From positions 108,217 to 172,216 of the forward strand of contig CAMYJB010000005.1 of NCBI GenBank assembly GCA_947258565.1: a DNA stretch of 64,000 bases. Reading direction: 5' to 3'. Both the position numbers and the translations under genes were made by a program. Within the stretch, counting starts at the first letter, position 1. Each line of letters starts with the position of its first letter. This document shows positions 44,446 through 47,453 of this stretch, one piece after another. The DNA is from an uncultured Woeseiaceae bacterium. GTDB lineage: Bacteria > Pseudomonadota > Gammaproteobacteria > Steroidobacterales > Woeseiaceae. The notes beneath the pieces are model-generated. The model was not told the origin of the DNA. It worked only from the letters and a program-made list of their open reading frames with translations, and did not search any database.

Positions 44446-44571
44446 CCCTACCTGTGTCGGAGTTCGCACTGCGTCGTCTGCGATCGACGCATCCGAGCGA
44501 ACGATTTACGCCGTTTATTGCTCTAATCGGTAGTAGTCTTGCAACCTGCGGCACATGGGACCGGATTCCGA

Positions 44572-44997
44572 ATGAAGCGTTATTCGTCAGGACGAAGTGC
44601 GATCAGCACATTTTGCGTCGGGATAGTCGTTGCATGTGCGTTGCAGCTCGTCTCGGCGACCGTCCGTGCGTCGGAGGCATTCGTTGCGGAGCACTACGCT
44701 GCCATGCACGCAAAATACAGCGACCAGGGACTCGTCATCATCGGCGTCAATCTCGACATGGAGCGTGCCGATGCCGAACGGTTCCTGGAAGAATACCCGG
44801 CGGATTTTTCCATCATGTACGACGATAACCAGGAACTTGCGCGCGCCTATGAGGTCGTCGCCATGCCGAGTTCCTACGTGCTCGGTCGGGACGGCGAGGT
44901 GGTGGCGCAGCACATGGGATTCAAAGTCAGGCAACAGGACGAGTATGAAGCGATCATTGTCGAGGCGCTGCGACAACCGGCGAGCAACGATGAATAG
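44572..44997 (+). CDS. Thioredoxin-like (TlpA-type) protein lacking the CxxC active site
   Basis: 141 residues from ATG 44572: a signal peptide (CVGIVVACALQLVSATVRASEA), then the second half of a TlpA/ResA-like fold: QGLVIIGVNLDMERADAERFLEEYPADFSIMYDD and VVAMPSSYVLGRDG with the cis-Pro. The usual FWASWCGPC segment and preceding strands are absent; the mature part contains no Cys. It therefore cannot do ordinary thiol-disulfide exchange. It overlaps the DUF4266 gene by eight bases and so belongs to the DUF4266-DUF3570-apbE operon. An upstream in-frame ATG (44539) is possible but gives a poor signal peptide. Confidence 0.78.
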   Translation: MKRYSSGRSAISTFCVGIVVACALQLVSATVRASEAFVAEHYAAMHAKYSDQGLVIIGVNLDMERADAERFLEEYPADFSIMYDDNQELARAYEVVAMPSSYVLGRDGEVVAQHMGFKVRQQDEYEAIIVEALRQPASNDE

Positions 44998-45217
44998 GAT
45001 CCGCATCGCCACTGCCGGATTCACAGTCCTCGTAGCGCTGGCGAGCGGTTGCTCGTCGATGGGTGTCGAGCCCTGGGAACGTGACATTCTCGCCAGGGAG
45101 GAGATGCAGCTGACCGCGGACCCGGTCGAGGCCGCCATCGACGACCACATCTACTTTAGCAAGGAAGCCTCCAGCGGCGGCCGCGGCTTCGGCGGCGGCG
45201 GCTGCGGGTGCAATTGA
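44990..45217 (+). CDS. DUF4266 small lipoprotein with Cys-tailed Gly-rich C-terminus
   Basis: 75 residues. Lipobox LASGC gives lipid-modified Cys 21; mature part about 55 residues with EPWERDILAREEMQL, then a Gly-rich tail (residues 61-75) ending FGGGGCGCN with Cys 72 and Cys 74. This is the DUF4266 pattern, of unknown function. The Cys-Gly-Cys end could bind metal, be thiol-active or be modified. It sits between the CxxC-less thioredoxin-like gene and the DUF3570 barrel gene, ten bases before the latter. The conserved ERD-LA-E-M core suggests a defined binding role. Confidence 0.85.
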   Translation: MNRIRIATAGFTVLVALASGCSSMGVEPWERDILAREEMQLTADPVEAAIDDHIYFSKEASSGGRGFGGGGCGCN

Positions 45218-45227
45218 GGCCACGAGC

Positions 45228-46541
45228 ATGGCGGATAAGGACCCGAAGTCAGTATCGGCCGCGCTCGCAGCCGCAACGTGTAGCCTGCTCGGCTCCCTGC
45301 CGGCAGCGCCGGTTCAGGCCGAGGAAGAGCCGAACTGGGACTTCAACACGGCGCTCCTGTATTACGGCGAGGACAATGACCGCGTCCAGGATCTGAGCCT
45401 CAATATCCTCGCCAGGCGAGACTATCTCGACGACCGTTTCCTGACGCTGGGCCTCACGATCGACACCCTCACCGGAGCAACGCCAAACGGCGCGATCCGC
45501 CAGAACGTACCGCAGACCTTCACGCGGCCATCCGGCAGCTCGGCCTACACGGTCCCTGCCGGTGAATTACCGCTGGACGATACCTTCAAGGACACGCGCG
45601 CCGCCATCACCGTCGGCTGGGAGCAGCCCCTCGGCAGGCTGTGGAAGACCGGCATCGGCTTCAGCGGTTCGCGGGAGTACGACTACACCCACCTCGGTCT
45701 CAGCGGCAGCCTGTCACGCGATTTCAACAAGCGCAATACGACGGTATCCGCGGGGCTCGCTGTAGCGCACGACATCTGGGACCCGGTCGGCGGGGCGCCG
45801 CTTCCGTTCGCGCCGATGCTCGACGTCGGCGACACCGGCAACAAGACCGGCAGCGACACGAAGAACATCGTCGACGCCGTTGTCGGCATCACCCAGGTAG
45901 TCTCGCGCAGACTGCTCGTGCAGCTCAACTACTCGCTCAGCAACGCGAGCGGCTATCTCACGGACCCCTACAAATTCCTGAGCCTCGTCGACGGCGCAAC
46001 CGGCGACACGATACCGCGAGTACCGGCACCCGGCGCAGAAGGGCCGTCGCACGAATTCCGTTTCGAGAACCGGCCCGACGAACGAACCAAGCACAGCCTC
46101 TATGGCCAGGCCAAGTACTACATGTCCGGCAAGGTCCTCGACGCCTCCTACCGCTACATGACGGATGACTGGGATATCGACTCGCATACCGTGGATCTCC
46201 GGCTGCGCTGGCCGCTCGGCGAATACAGTTACATCGAGCCGCACTTGCGCTTTTACACCCAGTCGGAAGCCGGGTTCTACACGATCAGCCTCGTCGACGG
46301 CGTCGAGTTGCCTGCCCATGCGTCCGCGGACTACCGTCTCGGAAATTTCGATGCGATCACGGCCGGCCTGAAGTACGGCTGGAAGACGAGCAGCGGCAGC
46401 GAGATGAGCCTGCGTGCCGAGATATACCAGCAAAACGGCACGATTCCGGGCGAATTGCTGATCGGCAACCAGGTCGGAAGGGAAACCTACCCGGATCTCG
46501 ACGCGATCATCGTGCAACTCAGTTACCATTTCTCGAGATAG
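45228..46541 (+). CDS. DUF3570 outer-membrane beta-barrel, putative flavinylated protein
   Basis: 437 residues: signal peptide (cleavage after PVQA, residue 31), then alternating amphipathic strands through to the terminal aromatic-type strand IIVQLSYHFSR, typical of an outer-membrane barrel. Residues 79-85 read D-T-L-T-G-A-T (45462-45482), exactly the ApbE FMN-attachment consensus Dxx(S/T)GA(S/T); Thr 82 would carry FMN. The next gene is apbE. DUF3570 has no described function that I can cite; a flavin-bearing barrel in extracytoplasmic electron transfer is my inference. Confidence 0.85.
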   Translation: MADKDPKSVSAALAAATCSLLGSLPAAPVQAEEEPNWDFNTALLYYGEDNDRVQDLSLNILARRDYLDDRFLTLGLTIDTLTGATPNGAIRQNVPQTFTRPSGSSAYTVPAGELPLDDTFKDTRAAITVGWEQPLGRLWKTGIGFSGSREYDYTHLGLSGSLSRDFNKRNTTVSAGLAVAHDIWDPVGGAPLPFAPMLDVGDTGNKTGSDTKNIVDAVVGITQVVSRRLLVQLNYSLSNASGYLTDPYKFLSLVDGATGDTIPRVPAPGAEGPSHEFRFENRPDERTKHSLYGQAKYYMSGKVLDASYRYMTDDWDIDSHTVDLRLRWPLGEYSYIEPHLRFYTQSEAGFYTISLVDGVELPAHASADYRLGNFDAITAGLKYGWKTSSGSEMSLRAEIYQQNGTIPGELLIGNQVGRETYPDLDAIIVQLSYHFSR

Positions 46542-46544
46542 CCG

Positions 46545-47453
46545 TTGGGCATCCCGGATTCGGCGCGGGCGGTCTCGGTCGAGGCCGGGCAGGACTGCCT
46601 CGTGGGGCGGTTCGCTGCGATGGCCAGCCCCTGCGAGATCCTCATCGAGTCCGGAGACCGGGAACTGGCCACCCATCTTACCCGGACCGCCGCCGATGAA
46701 GCCTGGCGCATCGAGGACAAGTTCAGCCGTTACATTCCCGACAATATCGTTGGGCAGATCAATACAGCCAACGGCAGGCCGATCGAGGTCGACGACGAGA
46801 CCGCCTCTCTGCTCGACTTCGCGGCCACGCTTTACGATCTTAGTGATGGCCGTTTCGACATTACGTCCGGCGTACTGCGCGAGGTCTGGACCTTCGACGG
46901 GGGAGACCGCATCCCGGACCCCGAGGCCGTGGACAATGTCGTGCAGCGAGTCGGCTGGAGACGATTGTCGTGGCGGCGTCCCGTGCTCGCACTGCAGCCG
47001 GGGATGCAAATCGACCTGGGCGGGATCGGCAAGGAGTACGCCGTCGATCGCGTCGCAGGAATGCTCAGCGAGGCAATCGCGTGCAGCGTCGTCGTCAATT
47101 TCGGTGGTGACCTTGCCGTGACGCGGCAGCCGCGGCAACGCAGTGTCTGGAGAGTCGGCATCGAGGCGCTCTCTGCCACAGGCGGGAGGGCCGGGACGGT
47201 GCTGGAAATCAGCACCGGTGCCCTCGCAACCAGTGGTGACTCCAGGCGCTTCCTGCGCAAGGGAGGAGTGCGGTACAGCCATATCCTAGATCCGCGGAGC
47301 GGCTGGCCGGTCGAAGGCGCGCCACGATCCGTCACGGTTGCGGCAGATACCTGCACGCAGGCCGGTATGCTGAGCACGCTGGCGATGCTCGAAGGCCATG
47401 CTGCCGAGGCATTTCTCGACGGCGAAGGCGTAATATACTGGTGCCGGCGTTGA
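46545..47453 (+). CDS. apbE: FAD:protein FMN transferase
   Basis: 302 residues of the ApbE family: RFAAMASPCEILIES, GRFDITSGVLREVW, IDLGGIGKEYAVDRVAG, VNFGGDLAVTR, GALATSGDSRRFL and HILDPRSGWPV with the metal-binding region TVAADTCTQAGMLSTLAML. ApbE moves FMN from FAD to Ser/Thr of periplasmic targets. No clear lipoprotein or Sec signal is visible at the N-terminus (TTG start 46545), which is odd for an extracytoplasmic enzyme; part of the N-terminus may differ. It begins three bases after the DUF3570 stop, so DUF3570 is the natural target. Confidence 0.92.
   Translation: MGIPDSARAVSVEAGQDCLVGRFAAMASPCEILIESGDRELATHLTRTAADEAWRIEDKFSRYIPDNIVGQINTANGRPIEVDDETASLLDFAATLYDLSDGRFDITSGVLREVWTFDGGDRIPDPEAVDNVVQRVGWRRLSWRRPVLALQPGMQIDLGGIGKEYAVDRVAGMLSEAIACSVVVNFGGDLAVTRQPRQRSVWRVGIEALSATGGRAGTVLEISTGALATSGDSRRFLRKGGVRYSHILDPRSGWPVEGAPRSVTVAADTCTQAGMLSTLAMLEGHAAEAFLDGEGVIYWCRR

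Follow-up and report, generated by a model that had tools for sequence, protein, structure and literature searches.

A putative ApbE-flavinylated DUF3570 barrel beside an ApbE without a signal peptide in a Woeseiaceae genome

The DUF3570 protein of Chlorobium luteolum is flavinylated when co-expressed with its cognate ApbE, as seen by in-gel flavin fluorescence, and the modification is abolished only after the serines at both of its motifs have been changed (Meheust et al., eLife 2021, PMC8238504). The same paper describes gene clusters of ApbE, DUF3570, a thioredoxin-like protein and DUF4266, either with a linked DsbD or, in 316 cases, without one. Here we analyse a DUF3570 gene and its neighbours in a 64,000-nucleotide stretch of DNA (the window) from an uncultured Woeseiaceae bacterium (contig CAMYJB010000005.1 of assembly GCA_947258565.1, positions 108,217 to 172,216). 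The window holds a complete cluster of the kind described in 2021, with the same four families and a DUF4266 protein ending in CxC. It differs from the published clusters in three respects: its DUF3570 carries one motif where the ApbE-associated DUF3570s of the paper have two, its thioredoxin-like protein is without CxxC (which the accessible text does not state as a requirement), and no DsbD is linked to it. The main text of that paper, in its accessible parts, neither calls DUF3570 an outer-membrane barrel nor remarks on an adjoining ApbE that lacks a signal peptide, and in the accessible part of another source the outer membrane is named once as a place of flavinylation sites, without DUF3570 (PMC11334425). 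In the mainly open-access literature searched, supplements aside, DUF3570 and DUF4266 each turn up in one paper only (PMC8238504), and no report was found of a signal-less ApbE beside an exported barrel. DUF3570 as an ApbE substrate is already published; the unexpected part is the place of modification.

For NqrC and RnfG the modifying ApbE is a secreted enzyme, as a rule held by a lipid anchor; the window differs in pairing a barrel substrate with an ApbE that lacks a signal peptide. The seven-residue motif is the same as theirs, as would be the chemistry, a phosphoester between flavin mononucleotide (FMN) and threonine (in part from PMC12052999). According to the accessible text of that 2025 review, most characterised ApbEs are secreted and the supply of flavin adenine dinucleotide (FAD) to them is obscure; the cytoplasmic ApbEs that it names serve cytoplasmic or intracellular targets (PMC12052999). 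One of these, in Klebsiella, is like the window's enzyme in being signal-less and matched to its own substrate, but its soluble fumarate reductase stays in the cytoplasm, whereas DUF3570 has a signal peptide (PMC12052999). The best explanation of the whole locus, to which we give a probability of roughly two-thirds, is that the operon ApbE puts FMN on Thr85 of DUF3570 in the cytoplasm, that the barrel is then exported, and that the flavin probably serves to pass electrons outward.

The flavinylation motif and the predicted barrel

An earlier reading of the sequence alone had drawn attention to the motif D-T-L-T-G-A-T at residues 79–85 of DUF3570, and the translated open reading frame (437 aa; PF12094, E 1.4e-124, profile positions 2–427 of 427) contains it at that place. 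It is the sole match to D..[ST]GA[ST] in a six-frame translation of the whole window, and the pattern arises in 109/20000 composition shuffles of the mature protein. The conservation among homologues on which the sequence-only reading had staked its claim held up. Full-length barrel matches of this type in relatives numbered 38, and the best 30 of these, which were fetched (59–92% identity), carry the motif at the identical column without exception; a second [ST]GA[ST] was sought in the same 30 proteins and none has one, just as the window's DUF3570 has a single motif. A strong barrel match was present in 16 genomes of a phylum-wide sample of 398, the window's own included. The exact [ST]GA[ST] occurs in 13 of the 15 other barrels; L037 reads DTLTGSS, and the extracted piece of L043 begins past the site and hence falls outside the assessment.

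A larger set, loci L048–L127, consists of the best 80 of 580. The motif itself was one of the two search patterns, so motif counts on this set (78/80 with the exact [ST]GA[ST]) are not independent evidence and we rely on the 30 fetched relatives. The two exceptions have altered motifs, DSLTGSS in L117 and DTLTGST in L067; in L067 the operon ApbE adjoins the barrel, and the genome of L117 gave only a distant partial ApbE match. An alignment of 70 rows, the window's sequence plus 69 from the 80 loci, shows no variation at Asp79 or Gly83, and position 85 holds Ser in 51 rows and Thr in 19; the 11 loci omitted, because they were redundant or their frame was broken or wrongly started, were L075, L083, L094, L102, L108, L113, L116, L119, L121, L124 and L126. 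A second [ST]GA[ST] is sometimes found in more distant or motif-selected proteins (L045, L046, L083, L095 and L110). The segment VDGATGDT of the window's protein (D at residue 255) was considered as a second motif and rejected, Asp replacing Ser/Thr. No barrel relative in viral contigs was confirmed.

Seven residues are enough for recognition by ApbE, and FMN is attached to the last Ser/Thr of the motif, as stated in the accessible text of the review (PMC12052999). ApbE modifies the last motif residue, so the predicted site in the window is Thr85. Covalent FMN on DUF3570 had been proposed at Thr82: attachment by ApbE is supported, and already published for the Chlorobium protein (PMC8238504), but the motif rule rejects Thr82 as the site, and T82A would be the wrong control, T85A being the change that corresponds to the last motif position (PMC12052999).

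Modelling supports the view that DUF3570 is an exported 16-stranded outer-membrane beta-barrel. The AlphaFold2 model, computed with an alignment, has a mean pLDDT of 88.9, a pTM of 0.83 and 16 long strands (37–48, 54–65, 71–86, 116–135, 139–150, 153–166, 171–184, 210–224, 229–242, 285–299, 302–313, 318–329, 334–345, 373–386, 392–405 and 424–436), with shorter strands sitting inside loops. Its predicted even strand number goes together with a signal-like N-terminus and an aromatic residue near the C-terminal end (...QLSYHFSR), as expected of an outer-membrane barrel; the signal peptide and the barrel-like ending had both been picked out earlier, and the barrel is now backed by the model and by two structure comparisons. 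All 50 listed Foldseek rows are outer-membrane barrel entries, with TM-scores of 0.2–0.5 by query length, and all 50 listed VIA-align rows are outer-membrane barrels, one being a phage tail fibre with OmpC (top Z 21.9, mostly near 15–18). The modest TM-scores imply no particular barrel family, and a sequence search for a match of known structure gave nothing better than E 0.23.

The five long connections of the model (87–115, 185–209, 243–284, 346–372 and 406–423) all follow odd strands and lie on one side. Since both chain ends are taken as periplasmic, this topology leads us to presume that the long loops are extracellular. The motif is located in the upper part of strand 3, directly before the conserved loop 87–117, and thus presumably at the extracellular end of that strand. 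Strand 3 alternates between hydrophobic (72, 74, 76 and 78) and polar (73, 75 and 79) residues, which gives Thr85 the parity of the presumed lumen face.

An ApbE without a signal peptide accompanies the barrel

The gene that begins three bases after the DUF3570 stop is apbE, as had been reported from the sequence, and its product is a clear family member (PF02424, E 2.7e-66; matches to 13 solved ApbE sequences, best E 2.6e-33) in which the SHI-DP active-site stretch appears largely retained in the two alignments inspected. It starts at a TTG. Because the gene shares the frame of DUF3570 and follows its TAG by 3 bases, no earlier start is available to it; the barrel's stop closes the frame 23 codons before the conserved FAAMASPC core, with no hydrophobic stretch between. 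The best 12-residue Kyte–Doolittle means were 2.6 for the thioredoxin-like protein, 2.24 for DUF4266, 1.75 for DUF3570 and 0.90 for ApbE, and in this hydropathy scan the N-termini of the first three look signal-like and that of the operon ApbE does not. The N-terminal signal peptide that marks a periplasmic ApbE is thus absent, and the operon ApbE is likely to be cytoplasmic and to act before barrel export, as far as its sequence can tell.

The same holds for its relatives. As a proxy for a signal peptide we used the 12-residue hydropathy mean before the core with our own cut-off of 1.8; this is a simple scan, not SignalP, and a weak signal peptide, for instance the one on the window's DUF3570, escapes it. 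An ApbE lies within the fetched stretch in 69 of the 80 barrel loci, and 68 could be scored (L118 has no scorable core). Every one of the 68 linked operon ApbEs stays below 1.8 (maximum 1.69; the operon rows have a median of 0.25), and the 31 control ApbEs all reach it (median 2.63); the controls are the two other ApbEs of this genome and 29 other loci from relatives, a selection that favours high scores. On a stricter count, the frame is closed between barrel stop and ApbE core in 39 of the 68, and 38 of these 39 score 1.10 or less; the exception, L112 (1.69), would count as signal-like at a cut-off of 1.3. Barrels, by comparison, score at least 1.3 in 79/80 loci, the exception being L083 with its misplaced start. 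A signal-like segment is also absent from the ApbEs of the Acidobacteriota loci L083 and L093 and of the Nitrospirota locus L095, only L093 having a closed frame, and the L225 ApbE has a hydropathy of 0.73 over the 45 residues before its core.

Barrel and enzyme also keep company across genomes, again in agreement with the sequence-only reading, which had looked to co-occurrence with apbE as a check. In a set of 119 genomes, made up of the window's own and those of 118 relatives, barrels of the full type and ApbEs of the window's subfamily (matches with E up to 1e-40) occur together in 37 and are both missing from the other 82, a split that counts related genomes, which are not independent, with signal peptides scored in part of the 37. 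It includes G053 as having both, with a barrel match in two pieces and an ApbE only 40% identical, and G056 and G057 as barrel-less. The last two hold short DUF3570 fragments only (G056:C71:937-1209 and G057:C121:14105-14293, one with two stop codons), and the signal-less ApbE is absent too, consistent with joint loss. In several genomes (e.g. G002, G017, G047 and G065) barrel and ApbE subfamily are on different contigs. In eleven of the 80 barrel loci the stretch contains no ApbE. Two of these, L074 and L078, break off directly behind the barrel; genome searches for the remaining nine turned up a signal-less ApbE of the subfamily at another place in seven, in two cases next to a further copy of the barrel, and gave distant or partial ApbE matches only in the last two, one of which is L117. 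On these sequence comparisons the signal-less ApbE goes with the barrel, and the simplest account is that it modifies the barrel precursor in the cytoplasm.

DUF3570 might instead be an ordinary porin-like barrel whose motif is kept for the folding of strand 3 and its loop and has nothing to do with flavin. Residues around the motif (G83, G88, T97 and S102) are as conserved as the motif itself, and a paralogue exists with a mostly degenerated motif (in forms such as SSAS...TTAS) and no ApbE in 10 of 12 fetched regions. This account is hard to square with the published in-gel flavin fluorescence of a DUF3570 protein, lost on changing both sites (PMC8238504), or with the exact co-occurrence of barrel and ApbE subfamily across the 119 genomes, and we consider it very improbable.

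Order of events, electron route and points against

In the explanation that we favour, the operon ApbE would take FMN from FAD and attach it to Thr85, where DTLTGAT ends. Lacking a signal peptide, the enzyme would most likely do so in the cytoplasm, working on the still unfolded precursor synthesised beside it, ahead of Sec export and insertion, and with FAD and magnesium available there. An unfolded chain is a plausible substrate, since the seven-residue motif suffices for ApbE (PMC12052999, accessible text). After insertion, FMN would come to lie where strand 3 reaches the extracellular side, beside the conserved loop, and electrons from periplasmic thiol carriers (DsbD, the thioredoxin-like protein and the CxC tail of DUF4266) would pass through it to a surface acceptor, perhaps ferric iron. 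We infer the cytoplasmic timing, the exact FMN orientation and the electron route, and the passage of an FMN-bearing chain through SecYEG is hypothetical. Electron transfer across or at the outer membrane, which had been proposed from the sequence, is neither shown nor excluded by these data. It is a good deal less probable that every element of a fuller picture applies, with FMN loaded before export and held in the extracellular mouth of the barrel and the flexible, Gly-rich CxC tail of the DUF4266 lipoprotein entering from the periplasm, to form a haem-free thiol-to-flavin wire through the outer membrane for surface reduction, for instance of iron.

The presence of a signal-less ApbE in all 37 barrel genomes of the set suggests a covalent cofactor that is loaded in the cytoplasm and then exported in an unfolded chain. 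If this is true, the sorting of covalent FMN becomes directly testable, and there is a defined outer-membrane flavoprotein with which to look into haem-free electron passage through that membrane. MtrAB-type porin–cytochrome conduits are outer-membrane barrels tied to a redox partner. A chain of the Mtr complex (6r2q_B) stands at Foldseek rank 50 for DUF3570, a similarity of fold only (14% identity); the four operon families include no haem protein, and, unlike in the Mtr conduit, the barrel itself would bear the cofactor as covalent FMN.

A possible connection with iron comes from the neighbourhood in relatives. In 10 of the 80 loci (L064, L082, L084, L088, L099, L104, L105, L108, L111 and L119) a block of genes for a response regulator, a histidine kinase, a cupredoxin (PF13473), an FTR1 permease (PF03239) and a signal-bearing protein lies at most about 7 kb from the barrel operon, to one side of it or the other and in both orientations. 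The families were assigned by Pfam on the L064 examples, the kinase being named by eye and the signal-bearing protein having no Pfam match. In those lineages the block points to a functional connection with iron. Iron uptake as a proven role was rejected: the block is found in only these 10 loci, several of them related, and FTR1 was searched for in the window's genome and not found.

Several observations weigh against the cytoplasmic loading of an electron-carrying barrel. Besides the missing FTR1, DsbD-like matches occur near the operon in only 7/80 loci, two of them weak. Invariant Leu81 departs from the alternation of strand 3, and the lumen-facing position of Thr85 follows from residue parity alone. 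In 29 of the 68 scored loci no stop separates the ApbE frame from the barrel gene and values of up to 2.0 are reached upstream, which makes overlapping starts there no more than unlikely. The window's genome carries two further ApbEs, both with signal peptides, and at least two ApbE matches, counted regardless of signal peptide, are present in 19 of 20 genomes examined; no genome with the operon ApbE alone was found among these 20, the sole one-match genome (L074) having its contig cut after the barrel.

With other ApbEs present, a secreted one encoded elsewhere could do the work, flavinylating the barrel in the periplasm and leaving the signal-less operon ApbE with another, cytoplasmic target, much as the Klebsiella enzyme has fumarate reductase (PMC12052999). 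Against such an arrangement stands the way the signal-less subfamily tracks the barrel, unlinked cases included (37/37 genomes with it, 0/82 without). The other ApbEs occur irrespective of the barrel, an ApbE being found in 36 of 40 searched genomes, among them the barrel-less G003–G006, and the window offers no second copy of the motif in any frame. We regard periplasmic loading by a secreted ApbE as unlikely.

The last point against concerns the thioredoxin-like protein, which lacks a CxxC thiol active site. Compared with L048, its gene has a 72-bp in-frame deletion (24 codons) that removes WCxxC while the flanks align at the DNA level; C..C, a simple pattern sought anywhere in the frame, is present in 70 of the 72 loci with a thioredoxin match, and the other two are masked or cut. 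The thiol branch is accordingly doubtful in the window organism, unless the deletion is recent or an assembly fault, either of which it could be. The loss might also mean that the operon is decaying here and that the system no longer carries electrons. Selection speaks otherwise: against two close relatives, dN/dS is 0.087 and 0.091 for the barrel, 0.114 (57 codons only) and 0.085 for DUF4266, 0.160 and 0.189 for ApbE, and 0.181 and 0.154 for the rest of the thioredoxin-like gene, not far from the relatives' own value of 0.138. Judged by these ratios, the remainder of the thioredoxin-like gene and its neighbours are under purifying selection (dN/dS 0.09–0.19). All four reading frames are intact, and decay of the operon seems to us an improbable account.

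Operon layout, partner proteins and the second DUF3570 class

The operon consists of four tightly packed genes (Table 1), the DUF4266 and thioredoxin-like genes sharing 8 bases. The earlier reading had remarked neither on these two upstream genes, nor on the loss of the thioredoxin-like protein's active-site cysteines, nor on the contrast between a signal-less ApbE and its exported substrate. Scanned from an alternative TTG at 44539, the thioredoxin-like protein matches AhpC-TSA (E 3.2e-10) and Redoxin (E 1.7e-8), with Thioredoxin_8 also above the cut-off; PF13899, the thioredoxin family named in the accessible text of PMC8238504, is not among its Pfam matches. DUF4266 matches PF14086 over 50/50 profile positions (E 4.7e-23), has a lipobox, LASGC, read by eye, and ends in GGGGCGCN (CxC). 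In L048 and L028 (bin.62) the DUF4266 frame is without the Gly-rich CxC tail and continues into that of DUF3570, which may reflect faulty assembly of a GC-rich repeat. The genome has a single DsbD match, on another contig.

Table 1. Positions in the window of the operon genes and of the predicted flavinylation site
Feature	Coordinates	Strand	Basis or remark
Thioredoxin-like (AhpC/TSA, ResA-like) exported protein, operon gene 1	44572..44997	+	Pfam AhpC-TSA, Redoxin
DUF4266, small lipoprotein-like, Gly-rich tail	44990..45217	+	PF14086
DUF3570, predicted 16-stranded outer-membrane beta-barrel, putative flavinylation substrate	45228..46541	+	PF12094, AlphaFold2, structure comparisons
ApbE target motif D79-T-L-T-G-A-T85	45462..45482	+	Predicted FMN site Thr85 = 45480-45482
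ApbE, FAD:protein FMN transferase without signal peptide	46545..47453	+	PF02424; TTG start

The DUF3570 paralogue lies in the same genome (L002, G000:C32:9299-10042) with its own DUF4266 alongside. Its class has a tandem site, D..[ST].A[ST]-x-D...[ST].A[ST], in 22 of 24 distinct proteins sampled; the motif glycine is mostly replaced, and the exact [ST]GA[ST] is seen in 5/24. Of the 12 stretches fetched at first, 2 contain an ApbE; a third case, L174, was selected for having one, and all three of these ApbEs have signal peptides. From these few cases we suggest that a secreted ApbE goes with a class of this kind, to which the published two-motif DUF3570s would belong, and a cytoplasmic ApbE with a class formed by the one-motif barrels.

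A GDPD phosphodiesterase (PF03009) is encoded upstream of the operon, and the protein encoded downstream has one weak, below-cut-off family match; both look unrelated to it. The source genome comprises 3.48 Mb in 53 contigs, and among the loci found the closest named barrel-bearing ones are metagenome-assembled genomes labelled Gammaproteobacteria and Woeseiaceae.

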